This document shows, in pieces, positions 9,195 to 62,380 of a stretch of DNA of 64,000 bases (its first letter is position 1; each line of letters starts with the position of its first letter). The DNA is from Lepidostoma basale (taxonomy: Eukaryota; Arthropoda; Insecta; Trichoptera; Lepidostomatidae), in NCBI GenBank assembly GCA_022606425.2, contig JAHDVF020000880.1, forward strand, positions 868,001 through 932,000. Reading direction: 5' to 3'. Made by a program: the position numbers and the translations under genes. Below the pieces are notes generated by a model. That model worked only from the letters and a program-made list of their open reading frames with translations. It was not told the DNA's origin and made no database searches.

Positions 9195-9310
9195 GTGTGT
9201 TTTGTATCCCTGACGAACCTCCGGCGGGAGCGAAACCGGTTAGTTGTTATAAAGAATAAAGTTTTGTAAATATGAATTTGTAAGTGTTTTAATATTACAA
9301 AATATTTAAT
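9195..9310 (+). repeat. Foldback family f, half element with hammerhead
   Basis: One arm only, joined to the NL-I 3' end. Contains the hammerhead at 9200-9254 and an AT-rich 3' flank (AAGTTTTGTAAATATGAATT). Confidence 0.5.
9200..9254 (+). ncRNA. Hammerhead ribozyme, family f
   Basis: CTGACGA (9210-9216, N7 = C), an extra A, helix II CTCC-GGCG-GGAG flanked by a C.C mismatch, and GAAAC at 9232-9236. Helix III is the palindrome ACCGGT, with a predicted cut after GTT (9239-9241). The distal helix I pairs TTTTGTA (9200-9206) with TATAAAG (9248-9254), including one or two wobbles, across an internal loop. All core nucleotides are canonical except the extra A; the first helix II pair is lost, so activity is uncertain. 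Confidence 0.6.
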
Positions 9311-10819: not shown

Positions 10820-10990
10820 ACATTTCAGTTTTTTTCTCTACATGTTTCGAAGGCTTACACCTTCATCAGCATGAGAACGATAAAAAAACAGATTTTTATG
10901 TCGTTCTCCCGATGGTAAAGGTGTAAAACTTTCGAAACATCTCGAGAAAAATAAATTCAAAAGTGAAAAAAACAGTGTTTTAATTCATAA
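10820..10990. repeat. Foldback family g with paired hammerhead-like arms
   Basis: Left arm 10820-10885 (minus) and right arm 10895-10965 (plus) are inverted copies. Both contain a GAAAC-AT/CTC end and TCGTTCTC as the helix I strand. The outer arm on the right runs into CAGTGTTTTAATTCATAAAT, the standard family g border. Confidence 0.7.
10836..10884 (-). ncRNA. Hammerhead ribozyme motif, family g
   Basis: On the minus strand: CTGATGA (10863-10869), a helix II region AGGTGTAAGCCTT, GAAACATGTA (10839-10848) and GAGAAAA. Among family g copies this one keeps U4 of the core; most others read CCGATGA. It has lost three bases (TGA) relative to the CCGATGATGAAGG consensus, so helix II is imperfect. 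Confidence 0.55.
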
Positions 10991-16204: not shown

Positions 16205-16565
16205 TAAAGTTTTTTTATTTTTATTTTTATTTAATTTATTCTTTTAAAAACCCAATTAGGTTATGTGGTTACATTTTTAGATCTTACTATTAATTATGTA
16301 TTGTTTCAGATATTTTTTATATTGAGTTGTAGTGAGATTCCTTGTGTCTTTAGGTAGTTCATTGTAAAGTTTCAGTCCATTGTATAATATCCTTGATTGT
16401 CCTGTCTTAGTTCGTGCAATCGGTAAGTGATATCTGTCACAATTCCTGGTCCAGTGTCTGTGTATGTCTGAATTTTTAGTTAATTTGTGGGTGCTGTCTG
16501 TTGTCTTTTCCATGGTCACTCTGTGTACAATTTTTAAGTTCCTCAGACTTGTTTGAAATATAGAA
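16205..16565 (-). pseudogene. Non-LTR ORF2 extreme C-terminus (Jockey/R1-like)
   Basis: Minus frame 16277-16519 reads HRHWTRNCDRYHLPIARTKT, GQSRILYNGLKLYNELPKD and KKYLKQYIIN. The pattern of a short basic strand, G-R/S, Y-NGLKLYN-LP is typical of the end of Jockey-type ORF2 proteins. Only about 80 codons survive, followed by an A/T-rich 3' tail near 16210. Confidence 0.65.
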
Positions 16566-16599
16566 GTTAGTAAACAGTTTGTTAATACTTCGTTATAAT

Positions 16600-16805: not shown

Positions 16806-17116
16806 ATTTTAATTTAGCATTTGCGCTCCATCAACATTATTCCTCCATCCCTTGTAACATAACGACGGAATTTCGTATTTTTTTTCGTTTAATTACTTGC
16901 GCAATAAGAGGATTATGGAAGCTCTCTCTTCGTCATGAAATTTTTCAGGAAATTTTATTGCGTTAATAGTGAAACTAAAGACGTAAAAATATAAATTTCA
17001 ACCGACTGATATAAAATTTCCGAGAAAATGTTATAAAATACTTCACTTGAAGAAAAAAAAAATCCAGTTTAATTATAATAATTCTTCATATAAAGCACTC
17101 ACTTTGTGGATAGACA
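16806..17116. other. No recognised feature
   Basis: AT-rich DNA with a short T-rich run; no repeat match. Confidence 0.3.
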
Positions 17117-17165
17117 TTTTAAATAATTATATAAATAAAACAACTTTGTATTTAATCACGGTAGG

Positions 17166-17228
17166 GTTATTATATTGATGCCAACTAGTTTCGCTTGGAC
17201 CCAAGCTTCATCAGGGCAGTATAATAAC
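17166..17228 (-). ncRNA. Hammerhead ribozyme (family q), left arm
   Basis: Minus-strand copy of the ribozyme described at 17460-17522. CTGATGA, extra A, GCTTGG-GT-CCAAGC, GAAAC, TA, GTT and GGCATC are all identical. In this copy the distal helix I is perfect: GTTATTATA pairs with TATAATAAC (9 bp), followed by the internal loop and TGCC/GGCA. All catalytic core residues are intact. Confidence 0.85.
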
Positions 17229-17459
17229 TAAACAAACATAAAATTCTTAGGTTTATATTTAATAACAAACAGTGAAATCAGAGTAGGGGGTGCGAGAAGG
17301 AAAGGGATAATAATATTGAAATATATACTCGTAAGTTAGTAAACAGTAAGTAAGTAAGTACGTCTTCATAACATAAATAACCCCTTTCCTTCTCGCACCC
17401 CCTACTCTGATTTCACTGTTTGTTATTATATATACACCTAAGAATTTTATGTTTGTTTA

Positions 17460-17522
17460 GTGATTATACTGCCCTGATGAAGCTTGGGTCCAAGCGAAAC
17501 TAGTTGGCATCAATATAATAAC
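17460..17522 (+). ncRNA. Hammerhead ribozyme (family q), right arm
   Basis: Type I hammerhead in order. Helix I 5' strand is 17460-17473, then CTGATGA 17474-17480 and an extra A 17481. Helix II is GCTTGG (17482-17487), loop GT, CCAAGC (17490-17495), 6 bp. Then GAAA 17496-17499 and a minimal helix III C-TA-G with U16.1 and H17 = U (17500-17505). Self-cleavage is predicted after 17505. Helix I is TGCC (17470-17473) with GGCA (17506-17509), an internal loop, and a distal helix (17460-17468 with 17514-17522, one mismatch). The flanking AACTAGTT is palindromic, so two molecules could share helix III. Confidence 0.87.
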
Positions 17523-17624
17523 CCTACCGTGGTTAAATACAAAGTTGTTTTATTTATATAATTATTTAAAATTATAATATATAACATGTATACGAGTATA
17601 TTGTGAAAAGTATTTGTGTGATTT

Positions 17625-17840
17625 GGATAACAACGTGTGATTTCCCCTTCTCGACCGACGTTTCGGAGGTCATTGCAATATCCATCTTCAGGGTTATGTG
17701 GTAGTTGGTGGGTTATGTGGAAATTGGTTGTGGTATTACGTGGTAGTTTACCACTACCACATTACCCTGAATATGGAGACTGCAACGATATCCGAATCGT
17801 CAGCCGAGAAGAAGAAATCACACGTTGTTACCCAATATTA
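17625..17840. repeat. Foldback family m with hammerhead arms
   Basis: Left arm about 17625-17711, right arm about 17747-17835: AACAACGTGTGATTTCCCCT inverted against GAAATCACACGTTGTT, and TGTGGTAGT against ACTACCACA at the centre. The inner spacer itself repeats GTGGTAGTT / TTATGTGG. It lies only 54 bp from the family q foldback. Confidence 0.75.
17651..17694 (-). ncRNA. Hammerhead ribozyme, family m
   Basis: Minus strand: CTGAAGA (17685-17691), extra T, helix II GGA...TCC (3 bp closing a 13-base loop), GAAAC-GTC with a helix III of one or two pairs (palindrome ACGT), then GGT pairing with ACC of helix I. Core canonical. The right arm copy has decayed (CTGAATA, GAATC). Confidence 0.6.
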
Positions 17841-18059: not shown

Positions 18060-18300
18060 TATGAAAATCAATAAAATGACTTTTATATTCTGTTATCACA
18101 CCACTTTATTTTGTTTTATCGAACATTGGTTTCGCTTCGGCCAGAGCTTCGTCAGGGTTACAAAAAAAATATATAAATATAATATATCTGGAGGCATGTT
18201 GATAATAGACAGAAAATGGAGAAAAATATCAAGGGTTAGTGGTTGGAACAAAATGGTGCATTTACAGTAATCGAAATTGATTAACTGTCAAGTTAACATA
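18060..18300. repeat. Foldback family l, half element
   Basis: One arm with AT-rich border (AATAAAATGACTTTTATATT) and a minus-strand hammerhead. No inverted partner was found to the right; the arm stops near the AATGGTGCATTTACAG region. Confidence 0.5.
18108..18170 (-). ncRNA. Hammerhead ribozyme, family l
   Basis: Minus strand: CTGACGA (18149-18155, N7 = C), extra A, helix II GCT...AGC (3 bp, perhaps extended), GAAAC, loop CAAT, GTT cut site. The distal helix I pairs TTTTGT with ACAAAA across an internal loop. Core canonical apart from the extra A; the first helix I pair is mismatched. Confidence 0.6.
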
Positions 18301-24061: not shown

Positions 24062-24150
24062 TTAATCCACTAATTATTAAATAAATAAAAAAAACACGAC
24101 ATATTTCGGAAGATACCTCCATCTTCAGGTGTAAAAATATAATAAAAACT
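24062..24150 (-). repeat. Foldback family o, half element with hammerhead
   Basis: A single arm: AATTATTAAATAAATAAAAA border, hammerhead, then TAAAAATATAATAAAAACTT. Its other arm is replaced by an NL-A 3' end at 24155. Confidence 0.5.
24094..24131 (-). ncRNA. Hammerhead ribozyme motif, family o
   Basis: Minus strand: CAC-CTGAAGA (24122-24128), extra T, helix II GGAGG-TATC-TTCC, GAAAT (canonical C lost), ATGTC, GTG. Proximal helix I CAC/GTG is perfect. Helix III would be the palindrome ACATGT but for the C-to-T change. Confidence 0.55.
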
Positions 24151-38409: not shown

Positions 38410-38620
38410 TAATTTTTCAAAACTGTTATACGTGACAAAATTTATACGCGACATCTGTTTCGTCAGTCTATGTTGGGATCATCAGGTACAAACAACTAAA
38501 AACAGTTGTTTATAATACCTGATGATACTAAAATAGTTTGGCAAAACAGCTATCGTAATGATACAATAAAATATAAATAAATTATGACACGTATTATAAC
38601 TGTGTTTTAAAACTAAAACT
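38410..38620. repeat. Foldback family e with two hammerhead arms
   Basis: Left arm TATACGTGACAAAATTTATA, CGCGACATCTGTTTCG; right arm GGCAAAACAGCTATCGTAAT, ATGACACGTATTATAACTG. Short central segment CAACTAAAAACAGTTG is itself a hairpin. Outward orientation. Confidence 0.75.
38438..38505 (-). ncRNA. Hammerhead ribozyme, family e, left arm
   Basis: Minus strand: CTGATGA (38479-38485), extra T, weak helix II around the ATAG loop, GAAAC, AGAT, GTC, GCG. Core boxes and a GTC triplet are canonical. Distal helix I can form between TTTATA (as in the right arm) and TATAAA. The right arm (CTGATGA at 38519-38525) has lost its GAAAC box. Confidence 0.55.
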
Positions 38621-53149: not shown

Positions 53150-53212
53150 TTATTGTAATACCTGATGATGTCAACATAGGTTGACGAAACAGCTATCGCG
53201 TAAAATAGAATA
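53150..53212 (+). ncRNA. Hammerhead ribozyme, family e, next to the PLE relic
   Basis: CTGATGA (53162-53168), extra T, perfect helix II GTCAAC-ATAG-GTTGAC (53170-53185), GAAAC (53186-53190), AGCT, ATC, GCG. The core is intact. The triplet reads ATC where the 38.4 kb arm has GTC, so the 15.2-16.2 pair is lost. Helix I starts G-C but its distal part is poor. Confidence 0.7.
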
Positions 53213-62299: not shown

Positions 62300-62380
62300 T
62301 ATTAAATATGTTTTTAAAATAAAAATAGCACAACATGTTTCAGAGTTGTCATCCATCCTCAGTTGTAAATATATAAATGT
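62300..62380 (-). repeat. Foldback family p, half element with hammerhead
   Basis: A single arm beside the NL-D 5' truncation point, with AT-rich border TTATTAAATATGTTTTTAAA. Confidence 0.5.
62326..62368 (-). ncRNA. Hammerhead ribozyme motif, family p
   Basis: Minus strand: CTGAGGA (62356-62362, N7 = G), extra T, helix II GGA...TCT (3 bp with one wobble), GAAAC-AT-GTT with palindromic ACATGT. Core boxes are intact apart from the extra T. Helix I is weak. Confidence 0.5.

Follow-up and report, generated by a model that had tools for sequence, protein, structure and literature searches.

The stretch of DNA analysed here, a 64,000-nt window from the caddisfly Lepidostoma basale, contains an inverted repeat whose arms, at positions 17116–17311 and 17377–17572, are each 196 nt long, 97% complementary and separated by 65 nt. 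In an ungapped comparison 190 of the 196 positions match and 6 differ, in agreement with the near-identical arms of about 190 bp described in an initial annotation made from the sequence alone. That annotation placed the foldback at 17117–17571, where the arms do lie, and left out a tail (17081–17117) and a target-site duplication. Counting the 36-nt tail on one arm, the whole unit is best delimited as 17081–17572, with a 10-bp target-site duplication outside it. The duplication, AATTATAATA, occupies 17071–17080 on the left and recurs as the same 10-mer at 17570–17579 on the right, where it overlaps the arm end by 3 nt. Both arms are oriented with their 3′ ends outward, the left on the minus strand and the right, which is tailless, on the plus strand; the tail, on the minus strand of the left arm, consists of an ATG and 11 further codons (MSIHKVSALYEE) followed by one T. 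The spacer (17312–17376) is filler at the junction of the arms. It has no relative among the other loci fetched, and no other locus of the sample called S1 below reaches into it. A 15-mer from the spacer (17333–17347) is found again at 16564–16578, about 770 bp leftward, and copying from neighbouring sequence may have supplied the filler.

Each arm carries a type I hammerhead ribozyme motif on its outward-reading strand, with the core and three helices present. The right-arm motif spans 17460–17522 on the plus strand and comprises the core (17474–17480), an extra A (17481), helix II (17482–17495), the GAA (17496–17498) and the helix III region (17499–17504); the left-arm motif spans 17166–17228 on the minus strand, with a predicted cut between 17183 and 17182. 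The window was searched with a strict descriptor, requiring CTGANGA, a helix II and a helix I of 4 bp or more each, a minimal helix III and NUH, which returned 17474–17505 plus, 17183–17214 minus and 24098–24128 minus, against 1 match in total in 60 simulated 64-kb sequences of equal dinucleotide make-up. The foldback with two outward hammerheads was thus found again by an inverted-repeat search and by the descriptor, which also agrees with the cleavage site that had been predicted after 17505 on the plus strand. The perfect 9-bp distal helix I claimed for the left arm is there (GTTATTATA/TATAATAAC); its right-arm counterpart has one mismatch. The 6-bp helix II of the initial annotation is not borne out by folding, which gives 5 bp with a GGUC tetraloop; with six pairs the loop would shrink to 2 nt. 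Its description of the hammerheads as essentially ideal is too strong, because an additional A lies between A9 and 10.1 (CUGAUGA-A-GCUUG), and PMC3705267 reports that in chrysanthemum chlorotic mottle viroid an extra A10 moderately slows trans cleavage by the plus-strand hammerhead.

In folding predictions, the hammerhead is the minimum-energy structure of the left-arm motif (−17.0 kcal/mol, z −2.45; 3 of 200 shuffles equal it). The right-arm motif adopts the same fold at −12.4 kcal/mol (z −0.63), with 50 of 200 shuffles as good, and so does not fold better than shuffled sequence. A single transcript across both arms is predicted to form one long hairpin (MFE −316 kcal/mol) and not hammerheads. 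A tandem dimer on the same RNA has been described for hammerheads with a short helix III (PMC6155905 and PMC7229834); one transcript of this locus could not supply such a dimer, because the two hammerheads lie on opposite strands. No Rfam hammerhead model was reported for the foldback, either at the gathering score or at E values up to 10. The best Rfam match on the foldback was a plant miRNA model (43.5 bits, gathering 73), which we take to be a hairpin artefact. The exact ribozyme 29-mer had 0 matches in viral_contigs. Compensatory changes within the family are too few for proof of the hammerhead fold; comparison by eye with the hammerhead of a sister family (L107, described below) shows pairing-preserving changes in helix II, helix III and proximal helix I.

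The surroundings hold further motifs of this kind. A second head-to-head foldback adjoins the first at 17623–17835, with older, 83-nt arms that are 84% complementary and a degenerate, outward-facing hammerhead-like motif (CTGAAGATGG...CCGAAACGTCG); it looks like another Penelope-like element (PLE) family. Other hammerhead-like motifs lie at 9210–9235 plus, 10845–10869 minus, 18130–18155 minus, 24104–24128 minus, 38458–38485 minus, 53162–53189 plus and 62338–62362 minus. These probably belong to other families, and only 24098–24128 minus passes the strict descriptor. The window also holds a stop-free, mariner-type transposase frame of 352 aa at 986–2044 plus.

The assembly searched for copies comprises 769 Mb in 1572 contigs. 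A 30-nt ribozyme core gave 2,783 + 2,773 = 5,556 matches at no more than 3 mismatches, and its reversed-letter control gave 0. The initial annotation had proposed a genome search for copies, their ends and target-site duplications, and had named an absence of further copies as what would speak against it; the search yielded thousands of copies with defined ends and target-site duplications, the 5,556 near-identical cores among them. A 26-nt stretch 3′ of the core matched 1,432 + 1,388 times genome-wide. A shorter form of a pattern meant for AGTT loss just before the cut matched 285 + 271 times, a figure that is not a count of AGTT loss. Three samples of loci were fetched. S1 comprises 39 loci (L007–L045) that were best-scoring matches, from 40 scored of 1639 candidates, and was not used for inner ends because it is biased to full arms. 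S2 comprises 41 loci (L024 and L046–L085), every listed exact-core place on C1 to C91. S3 comprises 20 loci (L086–L105) chosen by hand among the listed matches to the 3′ stretch at places not yet fetched, 14 of them without and 6 with an exact core listed nearby; its stretches are 351–521 nt long, so far partner arms would be missed. As L024 is in both S1 and S2, the window and S1–S3 make 100 distinct loci. Positions in the alignment reference are given as r-numbers, with the hammerhead cut after r689.

Across 129 aligned arms, off-consensus cells amount to 1.5% at the 13 core positions, 2.0% in helix II, 2.2% in distal helix I, 3.9% in proximal helix I and 6.1% in the 50 nt from ribozyme to ATG, and all 13 core positions are intact in 108 of 127 genomic arms, figures to be read with the selection of S2 by exact core in mind. 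The ribozyme is the best-kept part of the arm, proximal helix I less so than the rest, although in an active family copies inherit such conservation whether or not the individual copy is in use.

Longer copies identify the element. Upstream of the arm, L106 contains a GIY-YIG frame (PF01541, E 2.2e-4, scoring 21.9 bits where the cutoff is 22.6), and L014 contains a 299-aa frame (PF01541, E 6.2e-4, below cutoff). The latter shares 63% identity with the last part of an 837-aa ORF at L107, a member of a sister family. The L107 ORF matches RVT_1 (E 1.7e-11, above cutoff) and then GIY-YIG (E 0.0014, below cutoff), and a hammerhead of the same form, with the extra A, was seen by eye to follow its stop codon. 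Among the best 120 of 513 matches, the L107 ORF has relatives in insects, some of which, in Phthorimaea and Cacopsylla, carry both PF00078 and PF01541. Because of the upstream GIY-YIG frame and its 63% identity to the end of the L107 ORF, the arm is identified as the pseudo-LTR (pLTR) of a PLE. Hallmarks of such elements are present: a single ORF with reverse transcriptase and C-terminal GIY-YIG endonuclease, as judged from the frame fragments and the sister ORF, pLTRs, 5′ truncation, an inverted pLTR, a short tail at one end and a short AT-rich target-site duplication. The open frame of the tail and the published anatomy of PLEs point to the tail being the start of the ORF. Of the window's own family only a C-terminal portion of the frame was found; no full-length copy or complete ORF was recovered. 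Related PLE families on contigs C887, C916, C956, C753 and C853 have open frames of 840–873 aa and endonuclease segments that score equally at many places, which suggests recent activity. On these sequence relationships, the foldback is a Penelope-like retrotransposon's terminal repeat, doubled and 5′-truncated, and other places in the genome encode the reverse transcriptase and endonuclease of that retrotransposon. The initial annotation was right that this is a genuine hammerhead-bearing mobile sequence, but its proposal of the 455-bp foldback as the best candidate for an active element is not supported.

Arm orientation was tallied over the 100 loci, provided that the arms extended to r715 and that the two members of a pair lay no more than 1 kb apart: 59 adjacent pairs are head-to-head, 5 are direct and 0 are tail-to-tail. 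Counting by hand among the matches listed for the shorter pattern, at loci that overlap the 100, gave 22 head-to-head, 1 direct and 0 tail-to-tail. PLE endonuclease coding segments no more than 5 kb apart, also counted by hand among the best 150 of 3438 candidates and mostly from related families, gave 20, 1 and 0. A small array at L059:1295–1835 consists of head-to-head ribozyme pairs with 29-nt tail-to-tail linkers, its units alternating in orientation; its two tail-to-tail junctions between ribozyme-only units fall outside the arm tally because these units do not reach r715.

Seven of the 59 head-to-head pairs were unclassifiable and were dropped before tails, duplications and lengths were counted. 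In all 52 remaining pairs exactly one outer end is continued by the 36-nt tail starting at the ATG, and two tails occur in 0 of 52. A target-site duplication score of at least 10 was reached at 33 of the 52 loci, as compared with 12 of 416 mismatched pairings. Among the 43 pairs with a score of at least 8, the duplication overlaps the tailless end by 3–7 nt in 26, which is what priming of that end through microhomology would produce; this count lacks a separate control for chance overlap in AT-rich sequence. The 36 single-arm loci (L024 counted twice) comprise 16 tailed, 19 tailless and 1 other, and single arms with apparent, uncontrolled target-site duplications are present. One-sided insertions occur, as judged from these copies, and may start at either site.

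The inner ends of the arms were mapped in S2, picked by core, and S3, picked by the 3′ stretch. They lie at r640–650 in 41 of 72 S2 arms and 19 of 32 S3 arms, 60 of 104 together, and both inner ends lie at r631–650 in 22 of 32 classifiable S2 and S3 pairs. Most arms run through the hammerhead cut (66 of 72 in S2, 26 of 32 in S3). At the cut site itself (r687–692) inner ends number 0 of 72 in S2 and 0 of 32 in S3, which is the absence of a peak and not depletion, because 21 of the 104 ends are scattered over r651–730 and only 1–2 would be expected per 6-nt bin. Slightly upstream, at r681–686, lie 4 of the 104 ends: those of the single copies L093 and L102 at r685–686, inside the palindrome, and of two S2 arms at r681 and r684. 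Where both inner ends fall near r643, the arms meet as a near-perfect palindrome, and many pairs do so with 0–5 nt between them.

The position at which these ends cluster has the appearance of a transcription start. In most copies r643 is the A of TTTAGTT, and it lies 32 nt after the start of TATATATA, a TATA/Inr-like arrangement at the 5′ edge of the hammerhead. In the window the box is at 17427–17434 on the plus strand, −32 from the Inr-like A at 17459, which stands in TTTAGTG in this right arm and is the putative RNA start at which the inner ends of genomic copies pile up; the left arm has an altered box, TAAATATAA. From these features we infer that the PLE RNA starts at r643 and that cDNA synthesis ran to the 5′ end of the RNA, which would place the hammerhead at its extreme 5′ end. 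The ribozyme fold is an unlikely cause of the cDNA stop: an enzyme arriving from the 3′ side of the fold would run into it near r706, and not once it had already passed through.

Taken together, these observations make it likely that the foldback is the product of a single PLE integration, in which priming from both sides of the target on mostly uncleaved RNA left two 5′-truncated pLTRs head to head. The RNA would start at the Inr-like A (r643), and the GIY-YIG endonuclease would cut the target on both strands where it is rich in AT. From one target 3′ end, reverse transcription would begin at a fixed position some 36 nt into the ORF and so produce the tail; from the second, it would begin at the AU-rich stretch around the ATG, helped by microhomology, and leave the tailless end. 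Both cDNAs would run to the 5′ end of the RNA and be joined there, leaving outward arms within one target-site duplication, and the template RNA would be mostly uncut by its own hammerhead. Target-primed reverse transcription from two sides, of which the copies show a footprint, would account for the outward arms, the single enclosing duplication, the independent arm lengths and the one tail per pair. It agrees with work on a purified PLE protein, which cuts both strands and extends each of them, has two RNA-internal start sites with the tail sequence between them, and does not need hammerhead cleavage in vitro (PMC11167929). The same in vitro work found no difference in start site between the strands (PMC11167929), whereas the genome here shows one of each.

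Several observations run against this reading: the right-arm fold that does no better than shuffles, the weaker conservation of proximal helix I, the ends shortly before the cut, the tail-to-tail junctions of L059, the single-arm loci, and the agreement between the arms of a locus, which two-sided priming neither requires nor predicts. Discordant subfamily sites between the arms of one locus number 0 of 27 at r647, 0 of 34 at r708 and 2 of 31 at r731, where independent draws would give 3.7, 8.5 and 13.5, and six sites pooled give 11 of 162 against 42 expected. Such concordance is compatible with a single source RNA for both arms or with bursts of one subfamily, and not with two RNAs from a mixed pool. 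Mean arm divergence, 0.063 within a locus (39 pairs) and 0.073 between loci, decides nothing alone.

Subfamily variants common to both arms would be natural if one (antisense) template or cDNA snapped back at the palindrome and copied itself, both arms then being one molecule, as proposed for head-to-head PLE arms in Adineta vaga in passages of PMC3846280. The many near-perfect palindromes that meet near r643 with 0–5 nt between the arms speak for such self-priming, and symmetric palindromes are compatible with it. The comparison of arm reach is harder to reconcile: in 17 of 52 pairs the tailless arm exceeds the tailed one by more than 20 nt on the 5′ side (the tailed arm reaches further in 10, and the two are within 20 nt in 25), and for these 17 the proposal fails because an arm made by self-copying cannot contain anything absent from its template. 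Copying of a tailed arm should, moreover, yield a second tail, and none of the 52 pairs has two. We therefore regard self-priming as a rather unlikely origin of the foldback.

A foldback, once formed, might also be copied as a unit. L042 and L043 share their inner junction and are near-identical from tail to tailless end in unrelated flanks, each with its own, different target-site duplication. Only one such pair was noticed, and its roughly five differences all lie within the tailless arm, a clustering at one end that also fits gene conversion between independent foldbacks; copying as a unit is accordingly an outside chance in our view. A non-LTR retrozyme, which is a small repeat bearing a hammerhead and multiplies through self-cleaved circular RNA, would share the type I ribozyme with short helix III and the high copy number. 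Retrozymes are tandem repeats of the hammerhead-bearing unit, according to passages of PMC7229834, whereas only 5 of the 64 adjacent pairs here are direct, as against 59 head-to-head; ends do not peak at the cut and copies extend into the PLE frame, which together make this reading very improbable. Two separate insertions side by side in opposite orientation would explain why the arm lengths differ, but a single duplication encloses both arms, tail-to-tail pairs are absent beside the 59 head-to-head ones and two tails never occur, so that hardly any weight can be given to such a coincidence. The weakest candidate, to which we give next to no credence, is a transposase-mobilised DNA transposon of the foldback or MITE kind, bounded by terminal inverted repeats, which would account for inverted arms and target-site duplications but not for unlike outer ends (one tailed, one tailless), inner ends that vary by retroelement-like 5′ truncation, single arms with apparent (uncontrolled) duplications, or arms that belong to a PLE.

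Returning to two-sided priming, we tentatively extend it, with somewhat less than even confidence, to the proposal that in this genome ordinary PLE integration yields an asymmetric head-to-head dimer, in which each target strand uses a different one of two start sites, one chosen by the protein and one by microhomology, on uncut RNA, and both cDNAs run off at its capped 5′ end. If this were true, the hammerhead would act against or outside retrotransposition: it might, for example, remove caps from transcripts or inactivate them, or trim RNA from tandem read-through, and would not prepare the template. The data bear on why PLEs keep a hammerhead and on how inverted, tailed copies form. With more than 5,000 ribozyme cores, a ribozyme at the extreme 5′ end of the putative RNA, clustered inner ends and one tail per pair, the competing ideas become countable predictions: ends at the RNA start or at the cut, and independent or self-copied arms. 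PLE hammerheads have been published before, as have inverted pLTRs, tails and short target-site duplications (PMC3846280, PMC11167929 and PMC6155905). Our literature search did not meet the near-absolute rule of one tail per pair, the clustering of inner ends where the ribozyme begins on its 5′ side, or a test for ends at the cut site, and we do not claim priority for them.

The ribozyme resembles hammerheads from several sources. The plus hammerhead of chrysanthemum chlorotic mottle viroid has the same extra A10 between A9 and 10.1 in the passages of PMC3705267 that describe it; that molecule is a viroid RNA, and no further relation to the PLE hammerhead is claimed. The hammerheads of the newt satellite and the axolotl retrozymes, as far as they are described in passages of PMC7229834 and PMC6155905, share the core, the weak helix III with its palindromic loop and the two-part helix I. 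By comparison with those descriptions, the family in the window has the extra A after A9, has its arms head to head inside a PLE and lies mostly outside direct tandem arrays. The nearest systems are PLEs of the Penelope/Poseidon type, namely Pen2a_Av of Adineta vaga and PAc of Anolis, as presented in PMC3846280 and PMC11167929, together with Penelope of Drosophila virilis, as cited in PMC11167929. Hammerheads of Penelope/Poseidon-type elements lack helix III, whereas helix III is a short palindrome here. In PAc the ORF starts at stem II (PMC11167929), whereas in the present family about 65 nt separate the hammerhead cut from the ATG downstream. The tail is optional in the PLE literature, whereas in the family described here it is present in 52 of 52 classifiable head-to-head pairs.
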